Shown here in pieces: positions 40,354-56,990 of a stretch of DNA of 64,000 bases. The notes beneath the pieces were generated by a model. The model did no database searches and had not been told where the DNA came from. It was given only the letters and a program-made list of their open reading frames with translations. Origin of the DNA: an uncultured Bacilli bacterium (GTDB taxonomy: Bacteria; Bacillota_I; Bacilli_A; RFN20; CAG-826); NCBI GenBank assembly GCA_944376605.1, contig CALWDE010000006.1, forward strand, positions 1-64,000, in the 5' to 3' direction. Position numbers and translations under genes: made by a program. Position 1 is the stretch's first letter. Each line of letters starts with the position of its first letter.

Positions 40354-40731
40354 TTAAATAGAATGCCCTAGTTTCAATAAATGTTGATATATTCTTTTAT
40401 CATAACGAAATTCTCTCTCTAAGAGGATAGCACCCCTATCAATATGAGCCTTAAAATAAGTCGAGAACAAACAATCTTCTGATATGTTCTTTTTTTCAAA
40501 TTCACAAATTAAAAATGAATATAACGCATCGTAAGGCCCACATACTGTCTCTCTAGACAATTCTAGTCCATTACTATCGGTCATCAAGTCATCTTTAGAA
40601 AGAGGAATATCGAGTCGAATGGACAATGCAATTGCAATTTTTGAAAGTGCAAATGGTTGAAGCCCATTTGAACTTTTTATCTCACTAAAAATTCGCTTAG
40701 TGTTTGCTGACGTTTTAAGCCTATTCCCCAT
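40354..40731 (-). CDS. dndE: DNA phosphorothioation protein DndE-like
   Basis: DndE is a small tetrameric protein that binds nicked DNA in the DndCDE phosphorothioation complex. The 125-aa protein matches in length and pattern: RLKTSANTKRIFSEIKSSNG at the start (DndE R-x-x-x-x-x-x-x-x-x-L), IAIALSIRLDIP in the middle, and the closing HIDRGAILLEREF, which follows the family H-x-x-R-G-x-x-x-L. It is the last gene of the operon and overlaps dndD by 11 bases. The match is at pattern level; gene order gives most of the confidence. Confidence 0.78.
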   Translation of the reverse strand: MGNRLKTSANTKRIFSEIKSSNGLQPFALSKIAIALSIRLDIPLSKDDLMTDSNGLELSRETVCGPYDALYSFLICEFEKKNISEDCLFSTYFKAHIDRGAILLEREFRYDKRIYQHLLKLGHSI

Positions 40732-42820
40732 AACGAACTACCTCACCAAAGTATTCATTCTCTCTCAAAGTTGTACCATTAACACCGTTATTTACTAAAG
40801 TGTAAGTTCTAGCTAGATATGGCTTTAGAATGTTTAAGGTTAGTTGGTTAATTTCTTCATCAGTTGATAAAACTATTACTTGCCCATGCAGCTTTATCAA
40901 TAAATTTTCAATTAAACTTTTTCTGTGTTGTGTATCTATGCGCCCAAAGGGGGTATCAATAACAAACGGCATTGGCCTTTCTCCAAGCGAGCTTAATGCT
41001 CCATATAAACACATTAAATAAACTTGCCACTCTCCTTTCGAAAACAGATTTTCATCCATTTTTAAAGAGAGCTCAGTTTTCTCTTCCAACCCTTCATCTT
41101 GTAGTTCATCAAATGCCAATTGTCCATACACTCTTATAAATTCATTCTCGCCAAGCTCGTCCAAAATATGCCGCATAGATTTCGTTGAACAAGTAGTTTT
41201 TCGATATGGATACACTTGAAGTTCGTTGTCTATTTCCAAGCCAGAAATTAGGTTCTTTTTGTTAATTATCGAATTAAATAATTTTAAAAACGCGTCTCTT
41301 AAATAATGTACCTGTTCTCGAAACAAATGAATTTCATACTCGGAAAAACTATTGTACATTCTAAAGAACAATTCTTTTGAGGATTTCTCACGTAGCTCAC
41401 GGGAGCACTCTTCTTCGGCTGATAAAAAATCTTTTTGTATTTTTTCATACTCACTACTAATGAGTGAGTAACGTTCTTGTTCCGCTAACAATTTTTGATG
41501 AATAGAAGCTTGTTCTTTATTTAATTTATGCATATTTTTTTCGAACATTATCGTTCTGTCTTTTGATGCGCTAGATAAAGTGTTTCTTAACTCTTTTTGT
41601 GTCTTACTTGAACTTGTTATTTCTTCTTCTAAAGCAATATAACGACCAGTATCTAAAGAAAAAGCATGACTAGTTTGCTCTCTTATCTTTTCCTTATCTA
41701 AAGATGAGAGACTATAAAAAATTGGTTCTGGCCCTTCTTTTGAATAATCATGAAAATATGAAAGAAGTAAATCATACGTTTGCCCTCCAATTATCTTAAT
41801 AAGATCTTCTTTAACACTTGATTTTTCAAAATAAGAAAATATCGTTTCTTTCGCAAAATTGTCCGCACTATAGTCAAGTTTGCTCAAAGCTTTTTTAATT
41901 TGATTTTTCATCAATAATATTGGCAGTGAACTATTAGCAAACTCTTTCAATTCTAAACGCTTTTTCTCACGCCTTTGTGTCTCTTTTACTATAACATCTT
42001 GAAGATATTTCTCCTCTTTCTCAGAAATGCCTCCCGAACGGAAAAATGACTTAGTGTCACTCTCAATTTTGGCAGTAATAGATTCATATTTTTCTTTATA
42101 TAAACTAACTTTAGCGGCAACCTCTTCTTGCTGTTTTTTGATATTGAAGTACCGTTCTTTTAGTAATTTATATTTTGCTGAAGCATTCCTTTTTACTACC
42201 TTTTCAAGAGATAATTCCCGCAAAACCCTTACCAAAATATCAAAATTTTCCAATCCAGTTAATGACAAGAGAGTGTCTTTAAATCCTTTTCCATCCTTAA
42301 AAAAATCAGTAAGATTTTCTCCGTCAAAAAAATAGAAATTAAACAAAGAAATAGGAAGGTATTTATGTATCGACGCTTCAAATTCATCTTGTTCAGCAGT
42401 ATTTAACTGCCGTTCATTCATATGGTATCCATCAGGCAAAAATTTATATGAAATCACTTCTTCAATTTTAGGTTCATTTAATATCCAACGGCGTTCTATG
42501 CTATAGATGCCCATCGGATGTCGGCCATCGTCTAACCGTAGAGATAAACGAACTGAAGCGTTACCACTAACTTTATGCTGTTCTTTCTGATTAATTAGGT
42601 TTCTTAAATGAGCTGTATATTTTCTTCCCCTAGAAGACAACCCGTATGCTTGAGGCCCGTATAATGCTAATCGAATCGCCTGAAATAATGTAGTTTTCCC
42701 AGCTCCGTTCTTCCCACCAAGAAGCACTATTTTCCTAATTGAAGAGGAGGGGGATAATTCAAAAACATGTATTCCTTCATAAGACGCTAAATTTTCTATT
42801 TGAAGACGAGTAAAAATCAT
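40721..42820 (-). CDS. dndD: DNA phosphorothioation protein DndD (SMC-like ATPase)
   Basis: The 699-aa protein has a RecN/SMC-like ATPase head and coiled coil. The Walker A motif is GGKNGAGKTTLFQAIRLALYG (about residues 35-55). The family hallmark FYFFDGENLTDFF is at about 160-172. Long coiled coils with Lys/Glu repeats fill 200-560. The C-terminal LSKGEWQVYLMCLYGALSSL is the signature region and MPFVIDTPFGRID is the Walker B-D-loop. DndD drives phosphorothioate addition with DndC and DndE. The start overlaps the dndC stop (ATGA). No zinc-hook Cys pair is visible, unlike the second ATPase in the same operon. Confidence 0.88.
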   Translation of the reverse strand: MIFTRLQIENLASYEGIHVFELSPSSSIRKIVLLGGKNGAGKTTLFQAIRLALYGPQAYGLSSRGRKYTAHLRNLINQKEQHKVSGNASVRLSLRLDDGRHPMGIYSIERRWILNEPKIEEVISYKFLPDGYHMNERQLNTAEQDEFEASIHKYLPISLFNFYFFDGENLTDFFKDGKGFKDTLLSLTGLENFDILVRVLRELSLEKVVKRNASAKYKLLKERYFNIKKQQEEVAAKVSLYKEKYESITAKIESDTKSFFRSGGISEKEEKYLQDVIVKETQRREKKRLELKEFANSSLPILLMKNQIKKALSKLDYSADNFAKETIFSYFEKSSVKEDLIKIIGGQTYDLLLSYFHDYSKEGPEPIFYSLSSLDKEKIREQTSHAFSLDTGRYIALEEEITSSSKTQKELRNTLSSASKDRTIMFEKNMHKLNKEQASIHQKLLAEQERYSLISSEYEKIQKDFLSAEEECSRELREKSSKELFFRMYNSFSEYEIHLFREQVHYLRDAFLKLFNSIINKKNLISGLEIDNELQVYPYRKTTCSTKSMRHILDELGENEFIRVYGQLAFDELQDEGLEEKTELSLKMDENLFSKGEWQVYLMCLYGALSSLGERPMPFVIDTPFGRIDTQHRKSLIENLLIKLHGQVIVLSTDEEINQLTLNILKPYLARTYTLVNNGVNGTTLRENEYFGEVVRYGE

Positions 42821-44187
42821 TTGTTGTCCCCCTTATTTAGGTGGAGATATTCTTTGGAAAGAATTTGTTTTATCTTATTTCGAATGTTTTCTCCGCGTCT
42901 AACAGTTTTGTTTTTATCAATATAGTCAAGACACTGCATAATTTCAGGAAACGGCAAGGAATCCTTTGAACATAGATTTTTAATTTCCTTTGCGGTTTCT
43001 TGACTTAATAAAGCTGTTTTTGATTCATCCCACGGCAACTTTTTCCCAGTAATCTGAGCATATAAATCAACTAGTCTTCTACGGCTAAAATCGCCTTCTG
43101 CTTCCCAATATTTTTCAATTAGTTGTAACTCCTCTATCGACACTAACGAAAAACCAGTTCTCTTCTCTAACAGAAGAAGGCGCCGCAAAATCTCTTCTCT
43201 AGCTTCTAATTTGAATGGGCCAAGGCCTAGTGACCCATCACTTTTTTGATAGACCTTCCCATTAGCTCTATGTGATTCCCTATAGGAGGGATCTTGTCGA
43301 ATGGAAACTAACCAGTTTCGAAAATCCCTTAAAGGAATTAACTCGTTAGAACCCTTATGAATAAAGTTTTGTAATGATTTATCTTCTTTTACGATTGTGC
43401 AACACCAACACCCAAATCTGCTATTCCCTGTTACTGGAATTTTGGAATAATCAAGTTGTCCAAGGACAGAAGCTTCTTCTGTTAAGCTTTCGCCTTGATA
43501 CATTGCATATAATTGATTAACACTTGTTCCCCAGGGAGTTTTTCCATTGTTTTTAAGTAGATAGAACCAAACTTCAGAATTTGGAATTTCTGTTAATGGA
43601 TTAAAAACCCACGCTTCAGGTATATCCTCATGATGCTGGAGCAATTTTCCTTCTATTTCACGCGATTCAATATTTCTTTTTCTTGTGCCAGATTCTCCTT
43701 TTCTTACTCCCAGTAAGATAATAACTTCACCATACTTTTGAATAATTTCATTTACGAAACGATTCATCGGGTGAATTTTTAACCGTTCTGTACACCATCG
43801 AAAACCTGGCGGTTCTGGAGTAGGATACCCTTTCCCAATAACAAGTGTCCAAAAAGATTCTTCTGGCTTTGGATAAATAATTTCTGAATAAATATTTAGA
43901 TGATGTTCCTTTGAATATGCGCCAATCGCTTTATTAGAAGAATGCATATAATTCGCAACAACTGGATTTTCTAGCCCAGTGTCACTCGAAACGACAAAGA
44001 TGGGTTTCCATCTTCTTTCTTCTGGTATTCTTTGCATCATTTCAAAGCAAAGCGTAACCAGTAATGTTGAATCCTTTCCGCCTGAGTAACCTATCATCCA
44101 TGGACGCTTGTCATGAAGATAGACAAGTTTCATTTCTTCAAGGACATTATGAAATAAATTTATATTAAAAGAACACATGTTACTCAT
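42817..44187 (-). CDS. dndC: DNA phosphorothioation protein DndC (PP-loop ATPase/reductase-like)
   Basis: DndC activates sulfur for insertion into the DNA backbone. The 456-aa protein has the PP-loop MIGYSGGKDSTLLVTL at about residues 31-46 and iron-sulfur ligand candidates FRWCTERLKIHP (about 130) and RFGCWCCTIVKED (about 257), in the DndC order of PAPS-reductase-like core and 4Fe-4S cysteines. GVRKGESGTRKRN is a conserved nucleic-acid-proximal loop. The gene overlaps its neighbours at both ends (8 and 4 bases). No cysteine desulfurase (DndA) is in the window; a housekeeping IscS would have to supply sulfur. Confidence 0.92.
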   Translation of the reverse strand: MSNMCSFNINLFHNVLEEMKLVYLHDKRPWMIGYSGGKDSTLLVTLCFEMMQRIPEERRWKPIFVVSSDTGLENPVVANYMHSSNKAIGAYSKEHHLNIYSEIIYPKPEESFWTLVIGKGYPTPEPPGFRWCTERLKIHPMNRFVNEIIQKYGEVIILLGVRKGESGTRKRNIESREIEGKLLQHHEDIPEAWVFNPLTEIPNSEVWFYLLKNNGKTPWGTSVNQLYAMYQGESLTEEASVLGQLDYSKIPVTGNSRFGCWCCTIVKEDKSLQNFIHKGSNELIPLRDFRNWLVSIRQDPSYRESHRANGKVYQKSDGSLGLGPFKLEAREEILRRLLLLEKRTGFSLVSIEELQLIEKYWEAEGDFSRRRLVDLYAQITGKKLPWDESKTALLSQETAKEIKNLCSKDSLPFPEIMQCLDYIDKNKTVRRGENIRNKIKQILSKEYLHLNKGDNK

Positions 44188-44701
44188 TGCTAGAATTCTT
44201 TAGGTTAGGATCCTTCACCAATTTTGTAATCTCATCAAAGATGGCAATACTAATCACGTCTGGCTGAGAAGAATGCTTATAATTTTGAAGTTTAGCTAGC
44301 AAAAACATCACTCCTGTTCTGGCAAATGGTTCCAAAAGTTTATGACGATCGCTAGGAGCACCTTCATAAAAGAAAAGATTAAGTCGTTCAATATCTGTCA
44401 TGTCTGGATTTACGATTTTATTAAAAAGCATGACGGCATATAAATCGTTTATTAATTCTTCAATAGACTTATTTAGAAGTACTGAGTAAGGAATTTCTAT
44501 AGGGGTCTGCGCATCATCATTTATAAATTCCGGTGTTTGTTTATTTATAAAAAGTCCAATGCTCGCACAAAAAAGATACATCTCCGCAGCTGTTTTAAAG
44601 AAATGTCCCCCTTCTTTTTCTACCAGAAGACGACGACACTCTTGCCAAGGTTCGCCATAGAGTCTCAAAGAAGTAGTAATTCTATTATCGCTAGTACTCA
44701 T
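44180..44701 (-). CDS. 173-aa protein of the Dnd-linked operon, unknown
   Basis: The 173-aa protein has no signal or membrane segment. The N-terminal part (ITTSLRLYGEPWQECRRLLV, then FFKTAAEMYLFCASIGLFIN) has the charged-helix-hydrophobic-helix pattern of DndE-type small proteins, followed by a helical C-terminal half with LLEPFARTGVMFLLAKL. Length is greater than DndE (about 125) and I do not recognise a named family. The gene overlaps dndC by eight bases and the DndD-like ATPase upstream by four, so it is translated with them. A DndE-like structural role is a guess. Confidence 0.6.
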   Translation of the reverse strand: MSTSDNRITTSLRLYGEPWQECRRLLVEKEGGHFFKTAAEMYLFCASIGLFINKQTPEFINDDAQTPIEIPYSVLLNKSIEELINDLYAVMLFNKIVNPDMTDIERLNLFFYEGAPSDRHKLLEPFARTGVMFLLAKLQNYKHSSQPDVISIAIFDEITKLVKDPNLKNSSNE

Positions 44702-46749
44702 TTTTCTCCCCCTTCTGCAAAAAATGCATCAGCATCTGAAAAACTGATTTCTTCAAGTCGAGCTTTTTGGGACTCACCTTTAATTGCATAAACTTTGCCA
44801 ATATTGATACCCTCAAGTGCTGAATTTAAATTACGATTGGAAAGAATAATGACTTGTTTAGGAATGCTTTGGAAATGTTGCAAAGCACGTTCTTCCTGCT
44901 CAGCATCAGTTTCGGAAAATGGAGCATCTATGACCAGAGGATATTCGCTAATAACCTTTATATCGTCCTCGGTTTCGTCGCTAGAACATTCCGTTAACAC
45001 CTTTAATAAGCCAAGAACATAACTATATGAGGCAACAGCTGCCTGCCCTCTAGTGGTATAAGTGATACCTTGTTCTCTTACAGTTAAATGAAAATCGCTA
45101 TCCAGTCTCACTTCCTTACGAGAACCTGTAAGCATGCTGTTTAATAATCTCTCAATTTCATGTTCAATATTTCTTCGAACATTTTCAATACGAGAATCTG
45201 CAAATCGTTCCAAATTCTCAGCAACATTTTCAGCAATTTCTGCCGCAATACGCGATTGTTCCGCTATTTTTTGTTGCTTTAATTGTTCCAACCATTTTGT
45301 TTCTATGTCTCTTAATTTTTTCTCATAGAAGTTAATAAGTTTTTCACATTGAGATATTTTTCTAATAACATCGTCTCTGGCACGAATTTTCTCTGTTTTT
45401 TCTTCATAAAGATTATCAACGTTTTTCCCACCAAATTTTCTAATTTGACTTTCTTGATCTTGAATTTTTATATTTAAGTCACTAATTTCGTCCAAATCTT
45501 GATATAGAATTTTTGCTTGGTCTAATAAATTAGGTATAAGTTGTGATCTAGTTATATTAAGCGACCCTTGGGCATTAGATAAAAACGATTCGTATGCTGT
45601 ACGATAAGAATTGGGTGGCAATGCACGAATATATTCGCTAAACAACTCTTCTTCCCTTTTCCCAATTTCATGCCCACATATACATTTATGCCTAGAAATT
45701 AATTCTCTTAATATCGGTCCACTTAAGCCTTCAGGTAAATCAAACTTTTCTACCGAATCTGGCTTTAGTCGATTTGCCTGCACAACATCCAACTTTACCA
45801 TATAGGTAAGTAGCGCTTGTCCAAACGAAATAGAAAGATTTATTGTACTGCTTTCATGTTGTTTTTCTTTCTTTTCCTTTTCGCTTTCCAAATTCTTTAA
45901 TATGATATTCAGTTCTTTAAGATTTGGCATATCACCAATTTCTTTTTCAAGCTCTGCAATTTCATGATTTAAAATCTCTAACTTTTCTTGGTAATTTTTG
46001 AAATATGATTTTTGAATGGACAAACTCCATGTAAGGTTGTTCTTCTCAGACTTTATTTCATCGTCTTTTTCAAAATTGTATCCTTCTAAATCATGATTTA
46101 TTTGTCCTAAAACTGTCCACTTAGTAGTTTTAGTTCCTAATATATCAATAGCGGTTTTATATACATTAGTTCTAAAAAGAACACTGACAGCAACACTAAG
46201 GCCTTCAGCGTTTAAATCCTTTTTGGTATTTACCCAATTATCTGCAAATTTTTCCCCATCAAAGAAAAAATATGCAGCCAAAGATTTAGGCAAAATTTCA
46301 GTAATTGCTCTTTCAAGACCTCTTACATCATAAGGTAGCGGTTTTTCTCCTTTATCATCATCGTTTTGCCTATATATCCTAAGTTCATCATCTGCTGAAA
46401 GATGTCTAACTCCTCCATCGTTTTTCTTAAGATAATGCCAACGACGAATTACACGATACTGTTTATCATCGTGAGTAAAACTAATGCATCCCTCTACGCA
46501 TATTTGATTTCCTTCAGTTGTTGCATTAATCTCATCGATATTTGGCAAAGAGTTATCATCAAAACCAATATTTAATGGCAATGAACCATATAAAATCCAG
46601 CGAAAAAGTTGTAAGAGTGTCGTCTTCCCAAATCCGGAGCGTCCATAAATAACATTAATAGAGTCGGTAGAAAATGAAATTGGGTTATCTTGGCTGCCTA
46701 ACTTTCGGTAGTTCCGAAAGTTTTTTGCCCAAATACTTTTAATTAGCAT
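44698..46749 (-). CDS. Second SMC/DndD-like ATPase of the Dnd-linked operon
   Basis: Starting at ATG 46749 (GAGGAGGAAG just upstream) the protein has 683 aa. It shows the Walker A YGRSGFGKTTLLQLFRWILY (about residues 36-55), the DndD-type hallmark AAYFFFDGEKFADNW (about 158-172), coiled coils (about 235-300 and 420-540), a CICGHEIG cysteine pair at about 356-359 in the middle, like a zinc hook, and PLVIDAPFSETDAEQ near the C-terminus (Walker B). The same operon also encodes the canonical DndD, so this is a second ATPase. It may power the helicase-nuclease rather than sulfur insertion. Confidence 0.85.
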   Translation of the reverse strand: MLIKSIWAKNFRNYRKLGSQDNPISFSTDSINVIYGRSGFGKTTLLQLFRWILYGSLPLNIGFDDNSLPNIDEINATTEGNQICVEGCISFTHDDKQYRVIRRWHYLKKNDGGVRHLSADDELRIYRQNDDDKGEKPLPYDVRGLERAITEILPKSLAAYFFFDGEKFADNWVNTKKDLNAEGLSVAVSVLFRTNVYKTAIDILGTKTTKWTVLGQINHDLEGYNFEKDDEIKSEKNNLTWSLSIQKSYFKNYQEKLEILNHEIAELEKEIGDMPNLKELNIILKNLESEKEKKEKQHESSTINLSISFGQALLTYMVKLDVVQANRLKPDSVEKFDLPEGLSGPILRELISRHKCICGHEIGKREEELFSEYIRALPPNSYRTAYESFLSNAQGSLNITRSQLIPNLLDQAKILYQDLDEISDLNIKIQDQESQIRKFGGKNVDNLYEEKTEKIRARDDVIRKISQCEKLINFYEKKLRDIETKWLEQLKQQKIAEQSRIAAEIAENVAENLERFADSRIENVRRNIEHEIERLLNSMLTGSRKEVRLDSDFHLTVREQGITYTTRGQAAVASYSYVLGLLKVLTECSSDETEDDIKVISEYPLVIDAPFSETDAEQEERALQHFQSIPKQVIILSNRNLNSALEGINIGKVYAIKGESQKARLEEISFSDADAFFAEGGEK

Positions 46750-46936
46750 TTTCTTCCTCCTCTTTGATTTTTTCTTTAACTTTTTCAATTAACATGCTGT
46801 ATAAACTTGCAGCAGCAGCCTTTTTTGCAGAAGAAGTTACTACGATTCCGTCTTGATCATTTGTTGCTTTTGCAGCTGCATGTATCGCTTCTTTTAATAA
46901 CAGTTCTTCTATTTGAGCTTTATTCAAATCAGTCAT
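46739..46936 (-). CDS. 65-aa small protein of the Dnd-linked operon
   Basis: This 65-aa protein is helical and rich in Ala, Lys and Glu (AIHAAAKATNDQDGIVVTSS then KVKEKIKEEEENAN). It overlaps the helicase stop by eight bases and the ATPase start by 11, which supports its being translated. It has no recognisable motif. It may be a small subunit of the helicase-ATPase module. Confidence rests on the overlaps rather than on homology. Confidence 0.6.
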   Translation of the reverse strand: MTDLNKAQIEELLLKEAIHAAAKATNDQDGIVVTSSAKKAAAASLYSMLIEKVKEKIKEEEENAN

Positions 46937-49100
46937 CGCAAACTTCCATCCTTTCTGTAGCTTCTTCCATACATGTTTCGTTTAAGTTTTCTGCCATAAA
47001 CGTTTCCTCGATACCACCTAAGCCATATTGTTGAAGTAAATTAGAAAGGATTTTGTGTAACCCGTTTTCTCCTTCCCAGTTTCTAGCAAGTTTTCCAAAT
47101 TCATAAAATCTGCGAAATTCATATTTAGCTAAGGATTGTGTACCATTAGTTGGTAAACAAATGACATCAAAAATGGTTGCGTGGTCTTTGTGACCACTCT
47201 TTGCCTTTCTCAGAATACGGCCTCTACGCTGAATGAATTCGCGAATAGATGAACCACTGGCTAAAATTAATGCACCTTCAATTGAAGGCAAATCAATGCC
47301 TTCGTCTAAGCAACGTATTGCAGTAATAATGTCTATTTCGCCGTTCTCAAATCCATTTAAAATTAATTCACGTTCTTTTCGGTTTTCTCTACTTGTAAAT
47401 GGTGATGTGTGAAGAGAGTGATTACATTCGTCTATATGATTGTTTACAAAATTTATATATCGAAGTTCTTCCGTTTCCTTTCCGTGAATATCTCCCGCTC
47501 CACAATAAATAATTAGGTGATGCTGTAAATGACAAAAAACTTTTTTCAAGATTTCATTTATTGCATTCATCTTTTCTGAACATGTTGCAGGAATTAAGGA
47601 TCTTTTTCTTATGGCTGCACCTAACAAAGAATAATCCTTATCTTCGCTTTCAAGGATTGTAGCAATTTTTTGTGTGTACGCCTTAAATTCCTCTTCCTCC
47701 TCTGCCGTTGAATAACAAAAGATTGGTATGTAATCATAGGGTACTAAAACTCCAATTTTTAATGCTTCTTCTAAAGGAAGGCGAATGGCGTATCCGCCAA
47801 AAAAACGAACCAATTCATCTCCTGATTTATCAAATGGTAAACCTGTTCCTGGTGTTGCACTAAGCCCCAACTTATAAGTAAAGATTTCGTTTGCTCTTTC
47901 GTAATTTTTAAAGTGATGTGCTTCATCGGCCACTAGTAGTTTTTTTATTGTTTTATTCATTCCTAAAATATCAAATAACTTATTAATAGACCGATAAGTA
48001 ACGAGCAAAATTGAAGGCTTAGACAAGCTACTTAATCGCATTTGATTGATCAAGCGCTGCACTTGATTTTCCCATTCAAAGCCTTGAGAACTACAAATGA
48101 TTACATTCGTATCTATATATTTTCTAAGTTCTTCTTCCCATTGGTCTGCTAAAGCCAGTAAAGGAACGGCGGCAACCACCAAACAATTTGGTTCTTGCTC
48201 CCACAAAGTTTTTATTGATTCAATGGCGGTAATTGTTTTGCCTGTACCAGTTGCCATTTCATAAAAACCATTGAATCCCAACTCCGTCCATTTCTGAATT
48301 GCATCTTTTTGATATTGCCTTAGTTGAATTTCAGGAATTTTCTTTATAGAAGTTATTTCTACATAATTTTGAACTTCTTCTACTAAATTACTTTTTCGCT
48401 GAAAAGAAACTAATTTGGACAGCACAGCATCACTAAAATTTCGTCGAACAAGCCACTTATCATTTCCAGAAAGAATATTGGACAACTTTTGAGTAACATC
48501 TTCTACATATTTTTCTTCACCAAATTCCCAAGAGCGCATAACTTGGAAATATTCATGATTCCAAAACCCCTCTTTTCCTGTTAGAGCTGATAAAGTAAAA
48601 TTTCCACTCCCATTGAAAGTGACAATATTGCCGTAATCATCTAAAAAATATCCACACTTTTCATGAGAGATTCCCGAAGAACGAAAAGGGCCAACACACA
48701 AGATATCTAATCGTTTCGAAGCAATTAATTCCTTTAATAATTTGCTAGCAGTTTCATCTTTTTGATTAATCTCATCTATTACACTTAATAAATACTCAAG
48801 CGATTCATCAAAAGCCCAATTCACACGCTTTTGATAACCTTCAGTGATAGCATCTTTATCTTCGTCTTTGATTAGACAACAAGTAATGAAGGTGATTTTT
48901 CCATTATTAATTAGTAATTCCTTAATTCCAGGAAGAAGTGATAAAAGAGTATTACTAGTGAAAAAACCGAATAGAGCACAAAATTCACTGGATTGGCGCA
49001 AACACGGGATGAAAAAATCATCCGCTATAGGAGTTTCTGGGGTGTTTGTATAGCGATAGGTTAAATTGAATATTTTTCTCAAATTTCCATCTCTAAACAT
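46929..49100 (-). CDS. PLD-like nuclease fused to DEAD/DEAH helicase, Dnd-linked effector
   Basis: The protein of about 723 aa has two parts. The N-terminal domain (to about residue 240) contains ISHEKCGYFLDDYG followed by FNGSGNFT, an H-x-K and G-S-x-N pair typical of phospholipase D-type nucleases. The C-terminal helicase domains carry Walker A MATGTGKTITAIES (about 285-298), LLVADEAHHFKN (DEAH box), KLGLSATPGTG and motif VI DEGIDLPSIEGA ... REFIQRRGRIL. It resembles proteins annotated as restriction enzymes of phosphorothioation systems. It leads the operon; the ATG at 49100 is preferred over a TTG two codons earlier. The run of nine G lies 33-41 nt upstream. Confidence 0.88.
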   Translation of the reverse strand: MFRDGNLRKIFNLTYRYTNTPETPIADDFFIPCLRQSSEFCALFGFFTSNTLLSLLPGIKELLINNGKITFITCCLIKDEDKDAITEGYQKRVNWAFDESLEYLLSVIDEINQKDETASKLLKELIASKRLDILCVGPFRSSGISHEKCGYFLDDYGNIVTFNGSGNFTLSALTGKEGFWNHEYFQVMRSWEFGEEKYVEDVTQKLSNILSGNDKWLVRRNFSDAVLSKLVSFQRKSNLVEEVQNYVEITSIKKIPEIQLRQYQKDAIQKWTELGFNGFYEMATGTGKTITAIESIKTLWEQEPNCLVVAAVPLLALADQWEEELRKYIDTNVIICSSQGFEWENQVQRLINQMRLSSLSKPSILLVTYRSINKLFDILGMNKTIKKLLVADEAHHFKNYERANEIFTYKLGLSATPGTGLPFDKSGDELVRFFGGYAIRLPLEEALKIGVLVPYDYIPIFCYSTAEEEEEFKAYTQKIATILESEDKDYSLLGAAIRKRSLIPATCSEKMNAINEILKKVFCHLQHHLIIYCGAGDIHGKETEELRYINFVNNHIDECNHSLHTSPFTSRENRKERELILNGFENGEIDIITAIRCLDEGIDLPSIEGALILASGSSIREFIQRRGRILRKAKSGHKDHATIFDVICLPTNGTQSLAKYEFRRFYEFGKLARNWEGENGLHKILSNLLQQYGLGGIEETFMAENLNETCMEEATERMEVCDD

Positions 49101-49106
49101 ATGCAA

Positions 49107-49311
49107 AAACCAAGGAGTTCTTCGATAGGATACCCCCCCCCTGAAATTGTATTGACAAGTGCTATTTACAATTTATTTTCTGCAAATTGAAAAGTGATTT
49201 TAGATACCCAAGTGAAAAAATACGCGATAAATTATCAAGAAATAGAAGTTAATTGCACAATGTAACCATATTAATGCTTTGTTAGGGTCTACGTTGTCTT
49301 GATAAACAAAC
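49107..49311 (-). promoter_or_regulatory. Upstream region of the Dnd-linked operon
   Basis: This 205-nt gap lies between the HNH gene stop (49312) and the helicase start (49100). It holds the G tract and candidate promoter boxes (minus strand TTGTCA, TACAAT, TATCCT). No ATG-initiated frame runs through the tract into the helicase; the frame is open but has no normal start. No terminator for the HNH gene is evident, so read-through is possible. Confidence 0.5.
49133..49141. repeat. Homopolymer of nine C (G on the minus strand) in the promoter region
   Basis: Nine consecutive C on the plus strand, equal to nine G on the coding strand, sit 33-41 nt before the helicase ATG. On the minus strand they lie between TTGTCA and TATCCT with a 20-nt spacer, or just after a TACAAT. 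Such tracts change length by slipped-strand mispairing. Confidence 0.85.
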
Positions 49312-50343
49312 TTAAAAACTCTCTAAATCGCTTTCATGAGAAAGAATAAAATTTTGGTAAAAGCGATCTACATAATTGTGTTGGTTTGCAAAGGATAATT
49401 CTTGGTAAAATTGGCTCTTCTTTGGCAGTCTTTCTAGGAGATAAGCATTTCTCTTTTTTAACTTTTCAATAACATTTTTTGAGGGATATAAATCGCCCTT
49501 TTGAGAATTAAAAGATTTTGAAGTGAGCACTAAATTCCATATATCATCGCTATAAAGATACGTCCAAGGAATAACGTGATCTACAGATATATTGTCTAAA
49601 GCAATAATGGTGTCGGTATAAAAATCATAAATAGAAATGTTGTAATAGGCATCACATAGCGCCTTTTTATATCTCCCCAAATTATTTCTGTGAATTTCCT
49701 CTTTTGAAGCAGCAATCACCTTTTGTGCTATTCGAGGACAATCATTAAATCTTTCTAAAATACTAACCCATTTTAAATTATCAATATCCACTAAAATATC
49801 GTAGTATTGCTGCAATAATTTCACTTGATCGTCTGAAAAATAAATAGCACGTTCCCCTTTTTGATATTCATAGAGTTGTACGATTTTAGAGTCGATATTT
49901 TTAAAACGGAAAGCAACGTTCTGAGGAAAAACATTTGTTATGTCTTTAATTGTTTTTTCATAGACACTTTTCTTTTCGACATTTTCTTCAAAAAAACACA
50001 AAGCATCAGAAAACCATATGGGTTTCTTCAAATTAATTATATAAAAATAGGAATCTATAAGTTTTTTAACATGTTGCACAATAACAGGAGCCTCTTTTCT
50101 TTTAGATGGTGTGCTCTGTTTTAAATCAAAAAAACAAATTTGATTCCAGTAATAGCGAATAACCCTTCTTGCAATGCTATCAAAAGTAACTTGAACACGA
50201 TTTTGAAAAATAAAAAAGTCATTTTGGTGGAGACAGTCAAGAATCGCTCTTGCCCATGCAGGTTTATAAGTATTGTCAAAATGCATATTTTCCAACACTC
50301 TAATCCATTCACGAATATAAAAAGGGAGCGAATAGGTTTCCAT
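49312..50343 (-). CDS. HNH endonuclease-domain protein next to the Dnd-linked operon
   Basis: The 343-aa protein has a C-terminal HNH-type motif at about residues 252-288: SVDHVIPWTYLYSDDIW followed by NLVLTSKSFNSQKGD, with the D-H and N...N...K spacing of the HNH fold. The N-terminal 240 residues (FYIREWIRVLENMHF, TYKPAWARAILDCLH) resemble helper domains of HNH restriction proteins, but no sulfur-binding domain could be recognised by eye. It is on the same strand, 205 nt upstream of the Dnd-linked operon. TATGAT (50355-50350) ends 6 nt before the ATG, so leaderless initiation is likely. A link with phosphorothioation is inferred from location. Confidence 0.75.
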   Translation of the reverse strand: METYSLPFYIREWIRVLENMHFDNTYKPAWARAILDCLHQNDFFIFQNRVQVTFDSIARRVIRYYWNQICFFDLKQSTPSKRKEAPVIVQHVKKLIDSYFYIINLKKPIWFSDALCFFEENVEKKSVYEKTIKDITNVFPQNVAFRFKNIDSKIVQLYEYQKGERAIYFSDDQVKLLQQYYDILVDIDNLKWVSILERFNDCPRIAQKVIAASKEEIHRNNLGRYKKALCDAYYNISIYDFYTDTIIALDNISVDHVIPWTYLYSDDIWNLVLTSKSFNSQKGDLYPSKNVIEKLKKRNAYLLERLPKKSQFYQELSFANQHNYVDRFYQNFILSHESDLESF

Positions 50344-50375
50344 GATTGAATCATAAAAGAGAAAGAGCTTCCGTT

Positions 50376-50939
50376 CTAGTCTTCTCTTCTTAGAATCGCA
50401 TTGACCCAGTTTATGTTTCTTTCCCCTAATTGGTCCTTAGTTAAGAAAAGCTTCTCCGCAACAAAGGGGGTATGCGAAAGAAATTCTTCGAAAGAAGATA
50501 AGGTGAAATCATGGTAATAACGCCCATCTCTTTCTCCAGTAAAGTTGCCTTCTTTGAAGCTACAGTAAAGCACTCCACCCTTTTTTAAGGCACAATATAA
50601 GCGAAAGAAAACATCACTAAGATTTTGGCAATGAAGTAAAGACGCAGAAGCCCATATCGCGTCATATTTTTCTTTTTCTTCCAAATCTTCTACCTTCTTA
50701 AAAAAGACAAGAAATCCCTCTAAAGAAGCCTCTTTTACAAAGGTTTTGCAAGAATCAATTCCTTCTACCTCATAGCCAAGAGAGGAAAAATAAGCCATAT
50801 CACGGCAGGAGGCAAAACCAACGTCCAAAATTTTTGCCTTTTTCGGCAAATAAGATAAAAAGATTGCGTAAAGAGAAGACATATCTACTTTTCTCGCTTG
50901 AGAGAGATATTCTTCTGCATGCTCCTCATAATAATTCAT
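50376..50939 (-). CDS. Class I SAM-dependent methyltransferase
   Basis: The 187-aa protein begins YYEEHAEEYLSQARKV and carries motif I ILDVGFASCRDMAYF (about residues 37-51; DVGxxxCRD type), motif II VEGIDSCKTFV, and IWASASLLHC (about 92-101). The length and lack of other domains place it with TehB/UbiE-like small-molecule methyltransferases. The substrate is unknown. It is 32 nt downstream of the convergent-direction HNH gene but on the same strand upstream of it, so it could be co-transcribed; its own promoter was not clear. Confidence 0.8.
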   Translation of the reverse strand: MNYYEEHAEEYLSQARKVDMSSLYAIFLSYLPKKAKILDVGFASCRDMAYFSSLGYEVEGIDSCKTFVKEASLEGFLVFFKKVEDLEEKEKYDAIWASASLLHCQNLSDVFFRLYCALKKGGVLYCSFKEGNFTGERDGRYYHDFTLSSFEEFLSHTPFVAEKLFLTKDQLGERNINWVNAILRRED

Positions 50940-54000: not shown

Positions 54001-54102
54001 ATAAGAAGTAGCATTTTCTGCTGCTAAAGCAGGGAGCTCTCCTCCGATAGAGGAGGCTCCTAGTGCAGCAGCAAGAAGTAACAAAGAAAAATGAATACTC
54101 AT
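51019..54102 (-). CDS. Large membrane-anchored CE2-type SGNH esterase with CBM and InlB-like repeat
   Basis: The 1027-aa protein has a signal peptide (about residues 1-28), an N-terminal beta domain, a CE2-type jelly roll and SGNH hydrolase core: FEFLGDSITAAN (Ser about 455), VVGLGSNDLG (Asn about 546) and GDSGHPNALNHDE (His about 627). A CBM35-like domain follows (about 660-810, TYEAEDAYRQGGSV and GGWINYDYLQL), then an InlB B-repeat (about 890-950), a Ser-rich linker, and a C-terminal membrane helix with IKRK. It should be exposed on the cell surface and deacetylate glycans such as acetyl-xylan. The start overlaps the paralogue upstream (ATGA). Confidence 0.87.
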   Translation of the reverse strand: MSIHFSLLLLAAALGASSIGGELPALAAENATSYSFIEYSYLAHVRYPATDGGNYGQERVGFGTNWQQNLMPNLSSNEASYSRWVIEAPSAGAYQAVIHYASGDYAMNVYTNSQDNVQSMTLPSNNWAGGSSEITLNLEEGKNVVVFQVNQWGRVETFDLPNELNVSFPSSIEEGTYQQEDMLFQATHLSDFSLLFDAEADISYGGLPYDTSADYEGAAILFLTPASSTHSLDVDLTVLSGSNATLRVEIGGIEAGFNVDLSSYPVGEKVTVHLPSYQLDRIGFLPEEENYMRLSGDTSGASIQIHEVRESSEVDEDPASGLKVISAEELKNLVTIHGRSLEITGEITTDWSGSGISFVHHGSGDILLNASVLGNNQNSRYAVEVDGEFSHYVSLSSSMTLFTDLPEGERTISLYKTSEAAGNLASITSLSIDEEASITKPSQQEDSLKFEFLGDSITAANQISLGDENVYEGYAVLLSKAYGASFDILATSGRGLMEGYNSENGWAASQENQMKDIWKYQSYFRDSNTLRENDAPDVMVVGLGSNDLGQAIMSTFGTSIDDFTREATSFAATLREAYPKAKIIFCYGSFFNRDYIEEYRSAIEGIGDENIAFVEFPQLMHGDSGHPNALNHDEMASILSKKVAEMLGRDDPYVRRYQYETYEAEDAYRQGGSVSSAEGEQFWSNGAYVGSMGYDTSNPNYPNSTDEIAEDLSNISYLRFDVNAPSSAHYEMRLGYATSTSTNIAYRIDDGEWLELNNLNTNDWCGGHGQYASVGVDLARGNHTITITSALNSGGWINYDYLQLVEENALEECTITGENGTGYQFTSLPEVVLKGDDLAFGITLEDYYSKSSITVEANGKVLSALADGSYLLENVEENIVLTVSGVELNKWTVSFYLNEGDSEAYEEMEVEVGAPISLPAIDPTKEGYIFTGWDIPFEQMPNGDIHVYATWEEVSSSLPSDSSSSSSTISSSEPSSSSDGNSSSSSEGGDAPAEGGMNVPAIVGGTIGGVAALALIAGVTIYLIKRK

Positions 54103-56990
54103 AACGCTTTCCTCTTCTTGCGATAGACAAGATACCCAGTTGCAAGTAAGGCAATACCTGCACTAATGGAAATACCTAAAATAAGAGGTAAATAATCATT
54201 TCCATTATTAAAATCTGCAGAATCAGAATGCATAGGAACATTAATCTTCTCAGCTACTCTGCCCTGCGAAGAAACTAAGAAATCACGGTAATCATACTTT
54301 GCTTGAATATAGGAATATCTCTCCCGTAAAGCAAAATATTTAGGAGAAGAAACTAGAAGACTCTTTGCTTCATCGCTTAACGCTTCAAAAGAAGTAGCAA
54401 GTTCTTCCCATGTATCAGAAGGGAAAATAGCCTCTCCAGAAGGATCGCAGCTTTCTCCCGTAATAGAAAGGAAGCTCTCACTATAAGAATCAGCTTCTAG
54501 AACGGAAGTGGAAGAAGATAAATATAAGGTATTCACGTAATCGTAGTTCAGCCAGCCAGAACCAATTGGACCAGTCATAATAAGAGTATGGGTTCCTGCG
54601 GTTAGAGAAACTTGAGAGACAGCATAATGGCCATGCCCACCGCACCAGTCATCGGTATTAAGATTTTCTACTAATGTGTAGTCTCCACCATCAACATTAT
54701 AGGCAATGTCTGTGTCAACCTCTGTGGCGTAGCCGATTTGTAATTCATACACGCCATCTTTTTCTACTTCAATTTGAAGCTTGATATGGCTGACATTGCT
54801 TCCATCTGAAGCAATTTCGTCAAGAGAAAAAGAATTAGATGAGAAGCTACCCACATAAGCACTTCCAGACCAGTTTTGTCCTGCACCAGGCGCTTCTGTA
54901 GAGATAGAAGCACCTTCTAACTCTCCCTTTTCTGCCTCATAACTCTTCCAGTCGAAGCGGCGTGTATAAGGATCTTCTTCTCCAGTCATCTCACTATAAA
55001 GACGAGAAATTTCTTGTGCAATGTAGTCATGTTGATAATAAGAAGGATGTCCGCCTTGTCCTTGAAGTTGAGGAGGGAAATCTAAGAAAGCAACATCAGG
55101 ATTATTCATCCCTTCAATAGCAGCGCGGAAAGTCTCTGCTGCTGTAGCTGTATGAACGGTTCCAAGACCCCAAGTGAAGATAATTTTGGTAGAAGGATAT
55201 TGTTCCTTTAGCGTTTCTAAGTAACTAACTGCCGCGGCAGCAACATCTTCTTCTGTATTACCAAAAGTGTCACAAACACCAAGGTCATTATTTCCTAAAT
55301 TCGTAACAATTAAATCAGGGACATAAGAATCTAAATCATATTCTGCACTTTCATCACGGAAATAAGAGGTTTTTGTCCAAATATCAGAGATTTGCTTGGT
55401 ATTATCGGCAGCCCAACTGCTTTCTCCTAGCGTTCCTTGAATAACGCCTCTACCAGAAACGGAAACAAACTCGCTATCCGCATTCCAGGCTTTCGCAAGT
55501 AAAGTTGCAAACGCTTGATATTGATCTTCGTCGCCATCCGCGTTCATCTGATTGCCGCAGATAATCGAAGCTCCAAGGAAAAGCATCTTCTTTGTAGTGG
55601 TAGACTCTGCTTTACTTAAAACTCCCTCTCCCTCCGTAAGAGGAACATGTGTTAGAGAATTTAAGGTTACTAAGTTCCCATTCGCTTCGCTTGTTTTATA
55701 TAACCGAATCCTAGTAAGTTCTTCAGGTAAATTCGAGACAATAAGGGAATCGCTTCCTGGAGCAAAATAATGAGAGAATTCCCCATTAATCTCTACTGCA
55801 AAGCGGGTATTAGAAGAGTTAGAGATAACATCAAAATTGCCGCGAACCTCTCCCCCTCCTTCGACATTAAATTCAATTCCTGCTCCAGACCAGTCTAAAG
55901 CAATCCCTTGCTCTAAAGGAAGAGAACGTCCATGAACAAGAAGAGCGTTTTTTAGCGCCTCTCCTTCATATACGATTCCTTCCACTACGACAGGTTCTTC
56001 ATCAATAACATTAGACTCTCTCATTTCAAGTACTCGAATTTCTTGAGAAGAAACTGGGTTTGTAATACGTAATTTTGTCTCTTCTCCTGCTACAAAACCT
56101 AAATCCTCGAGGAAGTAGGAAGGAAGATGAAGCGTTTCTTCTCCGCCTTGGTTTTGGGAAACGAAAGTGTAATCACCTTCAACACCATCTAAAGAAAAGC
56201 GTAGAGTATTTTCTAATCCTGTTGTTTCATCTACTTGAATAACAAAATCTAAAGATTTAGTGTCGTTTTGCGGGATAAATGAAAGCGTTGCAGCGCCTTC
56301 ATATTCGGAAGACCCATCTTGCTTAAGATAAGTAAATTCAGGAAAAATATCGGGGTTCCACAGGGATTCTTCAGGATTTTCAACCCAGGTACAATTCCAA
56401 GTAAAATCTGCCTGATTATAAACACCCTCTTCTTGCGAGGAGAAATCAACAAGGGTCAATGTATCATCCAAAGATAAAGTGACAAGATTTCCCCAACTGT
56501 TAAACTGAATAACAATCGCATTTTTTCCTTCTTCAAGATTGAGAGAGATTGTCGAATATTGCAATTCAGTTTTGTTCCACCAACTCGTTTCACCTAAAGT
56601 AGTGCTTAAAGCATTTTCATATGAATTGGTATAAACAATAACCGGCAGATCCGCTGTAGCATCATACGTGCTAAGAGCAATGTTATATGTTCCTGCTGTA
56701 GGAGCTTCTACCACAAAACGAATGTACGAAGCTGTAGATGCGTATAAAGAAGGAATTGAGTTTTGTTGATAGTTTGTTGCAATAGTATTAACAAATTCAG
56801 AAGAAATAGTAGTAGGTACTTTCTCTTCTAACGCCTTAGCGTGAATATTTTGTACACTCGAATACAGAGAGTACTCCGTCATTCCTTCAGGAGCAGCGGC
56901 TTTCCCAATGATTAATGGGGGGGTGAAATTCTGTATCGCTATTGGTAACGTTAACATTGCACCAATAGCGAAAAGCGTTAATCGTTTCAT
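54099..56990 (-). CDS. Large membrane-anchored CE2-like esterase, second paralogue
   Basis: The 963-aa protein shares the CE2 and CBM35-like domain order of 51019-54102 but lacks the InlB repeat and Ser linker. Its SGNH core is altered: the GDS motif reads FLGASIICGN (Asp to Ala, Ser at about 475 kept), the Asn segment NLGNNDLG is intact, and the His segment reads GQGGHPSYYQHD, with Gln where the first copy has Asp. A C-terminal helix and KKRKAL anchor it. A signal peptide with seven C in its coding strand sits at the start. AAGGAGG lies 8 nt before the ATG. Activity is less certain than in the first copy. Confidence 0.82.
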   Translation of the reverse strand: MKRLTLFAIGAMLTLPIAIQNFTPPLIIGKAAAPEGMTEYSLYSSVQNIHAKALEEKVPTTISSEFVNTIATNYQQNSIPSLYASTASYIRFVVEAPTAGTYNIALSTYDATADLPVIVYTNSYENALSTTLGETSWWNKTELQYSTISLNLEEGKNAIVIQFNSWGNLVTLSLDDTLTLVDFSSQEEGVYNQADFTWNCTWVENPEESLWNPDIFPEFTYLKQDGSSEYEGAATLSFIPQNDTKSLDFVIQVDETTGLENTLRFSLDGVEGDYTFVSQNQGGEETLHLPSYFLEDLGFVAGEETKLRITNPVSSQEIRVLEMRESNVIDEEPVVVEGIVYEGEALKNALLVHGRSLPLEQGIALDWSGAGIEFNVEGGGEVRGNFDVISNSSNTRFAVEINGEFSHYFAPGSDSLIVSNLPEELTRIRLYKTSEANGNLVTLNSLTHVPLTEGEGVLSKAESTTTKKMLFLGASIICGNQMNADGDEDQYQAFATLLAKAWNADSEFVSVSGRGVIQGTLGESSWAADNTKQISDIWTKTSYFRDESAEYDLDSYVPDLIVTNLGNNDLGVCDTFGNTEEDVAAAAVSYLETLKEQYPSTKIIFTWGLGTVHTATAAETFRAAIEGMNNPDVAFLDFPPQLQGQGGHPSYYQHDYIAQEISRLYSEMTGEEDPYTRRFDWKSYEAEKGELEGASISTEAPGAGQNWSGSAYVGSFSSNSFSLDEIASDGSNVSHIKLQIEVEKDGVYELQIGYATEVDTDIAYNVDGGDYTLVENLNTDDWCGGHGHYAVSQVSLTAGTHTLIMTGPIGSGWLNYDYVNTLYLSSSTSVLEADSYSESFLSITGESCDPSGEAIFPSDTWEELATSFEALSDEAKSLLVSSPKYFALRERYSYIQAKYDYRDFLVSSQGRVAEKINVPMHSDSADFNNGNDYLPLILGISISAGIALLATGYLVYRKKRKAL

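Follow-up and report, generated by a model that had tools for sequence, protein, structure and literature searches.

The closest described counterparts of the element analyzed here are promoters that carry a G tract between their −35 and −10 boxes. In Neisseria meningitidis porA, the length of a G tract in this spacer sets transcription (as summarized in PMC7864442). In Treponema pallidum, the poly-G of tp0126, which encodes an OmpW homolog, also lies between the −35 and −10 boxes; expression is best at 17-nt spacing, and single isolates of this species can hold a mixture of 7 to 11 Gs at a poly-G promoter tract (PMC7864442). Slippage likewise switches DNA modification and restriction, and hence phage resistance, in phase-variable restriction-modification genes and phasevarions. 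These systems usually rely on a coding tract that switches one reading frame. One phase-variable restriction-modification example is the Campylobacter jejuni type IIG system (cited in PMC8713573). As for defense based on DNA phosphorothioation (PT), the archaeal prototype of DndCDEA-PbeABCD encodes a PbeB of 66 aa and a PbeD of 152 aa, and its PbeABCD half is active only with phosphorothioation and has no toxic effect once the modification is lost (PMC6459918). No phase-variable promoter is described in the DndCDEA-PbeABCD literature that we found, and our literature search for a phase-variable Dnd/Pbe promoter returned no report, nor did one for phase variation in RF39, the presumed order.

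Within the window, by which we mean the whole 64-kb stretch of DNA analyzed, a tract of nine Gs (G9) adjoins a seven-gene Dnd-Pbe phosphorothioation-defense operon, just upstream of its first gene. From comparison with related genomes, we consider it probable that this tract is the slippage-variable spacer of a SigA-type promoter that would switch the whole operon. Like the tracts of porA and tp0126, it would separate a −35 from a −10 box, here two candidate hexamers. The targets differ: porA encodes a surface porin of a Gram-negative pathogen, with no defense operon, and tp0126 a single outer-membrane protein, whereas the genes here form an intracellular DNA-modification and defense operon in a Firmicutes lineage. 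The proposed outcome, slippage that switches DNA modification and restriction, is shared with phasevarions. However, in phasevarions a coding tract affects one frame, whereas here a promoter tract would act on all seven genes of a phosphorothioation system together.

The operon genes were identified using PADLOC, Pfam, and NCBIfam (Table 1). As in DndCDEA-PbeABCD (PMC6459918), dndC, dndD, and dndE are present, pbeA and pbeC adjoin them, and small ORFs of 65 and 173 aa, which are without confident family matches, occupy the pbeB and pbeD positions; a search of NCBIfam with the 65-aa ORF gave no family match. Unlike in the archaeal prototype, the pbe genes come first, followed by the dnd genes, and dndA is not part of the cluster: a cysteine desulfurase (DndA/IscS) is absent from it, and aminotransferase class V (PF00266) genes occur elsewhere in the genome. 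Since neighboring genes overlap end to start, pbeA to dndE are probably transcribed as one unit. We take ATG 49100 as the start of pbeA; the mechanical ORF list begins at TTG 49106.

Table 1. Features of the candidate promoter, the Dnd-Pbe operon, and the genes upstream (window coordinates)
Feature	Position	Strand	Basis or remark
Candidate −35 hexamer TTGTCA	49153..49158	-	Spacer 20 with G9; assignment uncertain
Alternative degenerate −35 TACAAT	49146..49151	-	Suggested by alignment with G032/G018
G9 homopolymer tract in putative promoter spacer	49133..49141	-	Conserved as G9/G8 in G032/G018
Candidate −10 hexamer TATCCT	49127..49132	-	Directly after tract; TATTCT in relatives
pbeA, DEAD/ResIII helicase, first gene	46929..49100	-	PADLOC PbeA E=5e-158; NCBIfam TIGR04095; N terminus compared with relatives
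65-aa ORF, positional PbeB, overlaps pbeA end	46739..46936	-	Position and size
pbeC, SMC/DndD-like ATPase	44698..46788	-	PADLOC PbeC E=1e-60
173-aa ORF, positional PbeD	44180..44701	-	Weak TIGR04062 dnd_assoc_4 match E=0.008; syntenic in G032/G018
dndC, phosphorothioation sulfurtransferase	42817..44187	-	PADLOC; TIGR03183 above cut-off
dndD	40721..42820	-	PADLOC; TIGR03185 above cut-off
dndE	40354..40731	-	PADLOC; PF08870
HNH endonuclease-like gene, upstream of putative promoter	49312..50343	-	PF13395; upstream in all three species
187-aa SAM methyltransferase-like gene	50376..50939	-	PF08241; order relative to HNH swapped in G032/G018

The original prediction had placed a nine-base G run at 49133-49141, and these coordinates are exact: the run is on the minus (coding) strand and appears as nine Cs on the + strand, which reads ATACCCCCCCCCTGAAATTGTATTGACAAG from 49130. 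The minus strand at the putative promoter reads TTGTCA-ATACAATTTCA-GGGGGGGGG-TATCCT, so the arithmetic of the proposed 20-nt spacer (11 nt plus G9) is also correct, as is the distance of 33-41 nt from the tract to the helicase start, taken as ATG 49100. The further remark that no comparable tract was noticed in other intergenic DNA of the window holds as well, since the only other G/C run of at least 6 is a 7-base run at 56917-56923, inside coding sequence. That run is C7 on the coding strand and falls in the part of a secreted GDSL/CE2-type esterase ORF (54099-56990, minus strand) that encodes the signal peptide. It may be a short coding contingency tract; many relatives carry G8-G11 tracts within signal-peptide codons.

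How unusual is the G9 run? The G+C content of the window is 38%, and the run is the longest G run of the 1.18-Mb genome (15 contigs), which has only one other G8+ run and no A or T run of 9 (A9/T9). Dinucleotide shuffles give an expectation of 0.32 G8+ matches per 64 kb, and Markov models predict 0.02-0.08 G9/C9 runs per window and 0.4-1.5 per genome. Because 0.4-1.5 such runs are expected given the size and composition of the genome, the existence of G9 alone is no evidence of function. By itself the run is only mildly unusual; what rises above chance is its position and its conservation. We also rejected a poly-G sequencing artifact as the source of the run: the tract is interior, it is bounded by unique sequence on each side, and it turns up again in genomes that were assembled independently.

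The same operon is present in two other species of the genus, represented by the uncultured Firmicutes MAGs CASEPN010000001.1 (G032) and CASFDV010000003.1 (G018), with one genome sampled per species. Their PbeA proteins are 47-48% identical to that of the window, and the gene neighborhood is fully syntenic for the operon in all three. Upstream of pbeA, G032 carries CTTGAAAAATCCT-G9-TATTCTTC and G018 carries CTTGAAAAATCAA-G8-TATTCTTC, in both cases with TTGAAA and TATTCT flanking the tract at spacers of 15 and 14, respectively. The window (49312-50939) and the relatives (L163/L164) carry the HNH and methyltransferase genes in opposite orders, and the tract stays with pbeA. Two scans of genome contigs were made; the first, with PbeA, gave no match and the second, with an alignment, found only G032 and G018. 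For more distant PbeA homologs of the order (pbe loci L124-L132), the DNA just upstream lacks a G tract, and no second isolate of the locus was found in viral contigs (two pattern scans) or plasmids (distant blastn).

These comparisons bear on the simplest alternative, which is that the run arose by chance, has no regulatory role, and is flanked by coincidental boxes. The genome-wide expectation given above, the imperfect −35 box of the window, and the finding that promoter-like matches in the tract region are not in excess over shuffles are all compatible with a chance run. Against this, the tract occupies the same site before pbeA in two other species even though the intergenic DNA is otherwise barely alignable between them and the window; the probability that either of the two genomic G8+ tracts would land in the ~100 nt preceding pbeA is about 2e-4; and, as described below, the architecture is strongly enriched in the genus and order. 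We therefore regard a chance run as unlikely.

It could also be proposed that the tract belongs to a 5′ extension of pbeA, with its length setting the frame of an upstream start. The pbeA frame of the window is open through the tract, and upstream TTG codons would be in frame at G8 in both the window and G018. However, in G032 a TAA lies in the frame of the ATG between the tract and the ATG; therefore no tract length can join the two, and a coding role is excluded there. In addition, homology with the relatives begins at the downstream ATG, and the extended peptide is not conserved. We give such a translational switch very little credence, and a coding-frame switch of the frameshift contingency type was rejected, as the in-frame stop in G032 places the tract outside the translated frame.

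If the tract is instead a promoter spacer, which boxes does it separate? Measured against promoters of the porA/tp0126 type, the run is of sufficient length (G9, with at least about 8 G/C as the standard) and its length differs among related genomes (G9/G9/G8 in the window, G032, and G018); the boxes are TTGTCA-20-TATCCT in the window, with a weak −35, and TTGAAA-15/14-TATTCT in the relatives, and the statistics for the promoter class are strong. The −35 box of the window is the weakest link, and its exact identity in this species is uncertain. TTGTCA lies 11 nt from G9, versus 6 nt for the corresponding −35-like hexamer in G032 and G018, and the degenerate TACAAT is near the distance at which the relatives carry TTGAAA. 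TTGTCA is also part of a near-palindrome, TTGTCAA/TTGACAA. A consensus promoter scanner (spacer 16-18) detected no promoter on the tract's strand at the tract. On the + strand, a promoter-like TTGACA-16-TATTTT (49152-49179) overlaps the putative pbe −35 and points away from the operon; it could be an antisense promoter or a chance match.

None of the three pbe copies has a spacer of 16-18, as the values are 20 in the window and 15 and 14 in the relatives. If 17 is optimal, all three assemblies would therefore be in weak states, and the assembled G9 state, with a spacer of 20 from TTGTCA, is predicted to be weak or off. Either the majority state may thus be an inactive or weakly active one, or this lineage may have a different optimum.

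Further evidence for the spacer reading comes from the wider genus and order. Among all G8+ tracts of 37 genus genomes, 83 distinct tracts had enough flank to be analyzed, and 17 of these have a −35-like hexamer of the TTG type upstream and a −10-like hexamer, TAnnnT, downstream. By the same criteria, the opposite strand gave 1, seven shifted positions gave 0-3, and 500 shuffles of the flanks averaged 0.67 (maximum 4). Other G8+ tracts of the genus fall within apparent signal-peptide codons, which is how phase variation usually works when the tract is coding. In a scan of 279 genomes of the order, the pattern TTGA-N3-8-G8+-N0-3-TAT occurs in 25 genomes of 17 genera (1 match for the reversed pattern), and TTGAC-N3-10-G6+-N0-9-TAnnnT occurs in 67 genomes (about 10 matches for the reversed-pattern control).

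For the second pattern, site statistics rest on 129 distinct sites among the matches listed. Tract lengths at these listed sites peak at 8-10 (30, 39, and 32 sites), with few of 6-7 (10 and 9), the opposite of the decay expected by chance. The tract lies 0-1 nt from the −10 box in 95 of the 129, and spacers are mostly 13-20 and most frequent at 15 and 18-19 instead of 17. Many sites have perfect boxes, such as TTGACAAAAATC-G9-TATAAT. By inspection, the downstream genes that were retrieved appear mainly to encode lipoproteins, secreted or anchored proteins, pilin-like proteins, acyl- and sugar-transferases, and membrane proteins; in the genus, G-tract promoters also precede GIY-YIG nuclease-like and DUF2971-like genes. 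Order-wide, at least 120 G-tract-spacer promoters (for example, L167-L206) are found, mostly ahead of genes for surface-protein-like products. At L050, L088, and L075, a near-identical inverted repeat, CTTCCCG...CGGGAACTT, lies about 110 nt upstream of the tract and is followed by a TTGAAATTCTT-Gn promoter. This element precedes different genes (GIY-YIG in two species and DUF2971-like in the third), a pattern suggestive of a promoter cassette that was duplicated or relocated.

Could the tract be a fixed recognition site for a regulator, or a DNA-structure element, rather than a slippage device? A recurrent flank motif, TTGAAATTC-nn-Gn-TATTCT, is seen in several loci of the genus and would fit a fixed site. 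However, the flanks vary, and tract lengths range from 7 to 16 across the promoter class (mostly G7-G12). Copies with about 77-95% identical flanks, whether orthologous or paralogous, differ by one G (L196/L197, L187/L188, L068/L076, L055/L079, L078/L099, and L065/L084). Nor does structure favor this explanation: the single-strand DNA fold of the tract region is unremarkable (z=0.41), and an intramolecular quadruplex requires more than a single G run. A fixed element is, in our view, extremely improbable.

The mismatch repair background of the genus is relevant to how often the tract might slip. Neither MutS1 nor MutL was found above cut-off in any of the 37 genus genomes, and the window's genome encodes a single MutS-like protein, MutS2. 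The missing MutS1 and MutL should raise slippage rates in the genus. Elsewhere in the order, MutS1 is present in 72 of 279 genomes, including several rich in G-tract promoters, and no correlation between these promoters and MutS1 loss is evident across the order. Because site-rich genomes such as G045, G048, and G082 keep MutS1, the architecture can exist without mismatch repair having been lost.

A final alternative accepts the tract as a true promoter spacer that varies between species, but holds that its main effect, on an evolutionary time scale, is to adjust how strong the promoter is, without frequent switching in populations. The length differences we observed are only between species and between copies, which fits this model, and slippage is rarer in G8-G9 tracts than in longer ones. 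Both the missing MutS1 and MutL and the documented mixtures of 7 to 11 Gs within T. pallidum isolates (PMC7864442) argue against it, and we consider evolutionary tuning alone highly unlikely.

Taken as a phase switch, as the original prediction suggested, the tract gains support from the conserved site, the enriched architecture, the one-G differences between copies, and the missing MutS1 and MutL of the genus. In the mechanism that we propose, G9 would be the variable spacer of a housekeeping-sigma (SigA-type) promoter, predicted to be active, that drives pbeA-pbeB-pbeC-pbeD(like)-dndC-dndD-dndE. Slipped-strand mispairing during replication would add or remove single Gs, such that tract length would vary within one population. 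Each gain or loss would shift the −35 and −10 boxes around an optimal spacing of about 17, raising or lowering transcription of the modification-plus-restriction operon in individual cells. One promoter could plausibly switch both halves without killing the cells that turn the system on, since PbeABCD acts only with phosphorothioation and is non-toxic without it (as described in archaea; PMC6459918).

We also envision, more tentatively and with somewhat less than even confidence, that populations of the order contain both PT-modified cells, which resist viruses, and unmodified cells capable of DNA uptake. Such a "PT phasevarion" would be part of an order-wide set of G-tract-spacer promoters that otherwise diversifies the cell surface. 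Although the mechanism is already known from porA and tp0126, the target and lineage appear to be new.

If this reading is correct, phosphorothioation defense would be a bet-hedged trait, and members of one clone would not all share the same DNA backbone chemistry or resistance to viruses and might also differ in gene expression. Restriction and modification would be switched together by one promoter, an arrangement that the PT dependence of Pbe would make survivable. More broadly, this uncultured Firmicutes order holds a large and apparently undescribed repertoire of G-tract-spacer promoters, found also in a genus without MutS1 and MutL.
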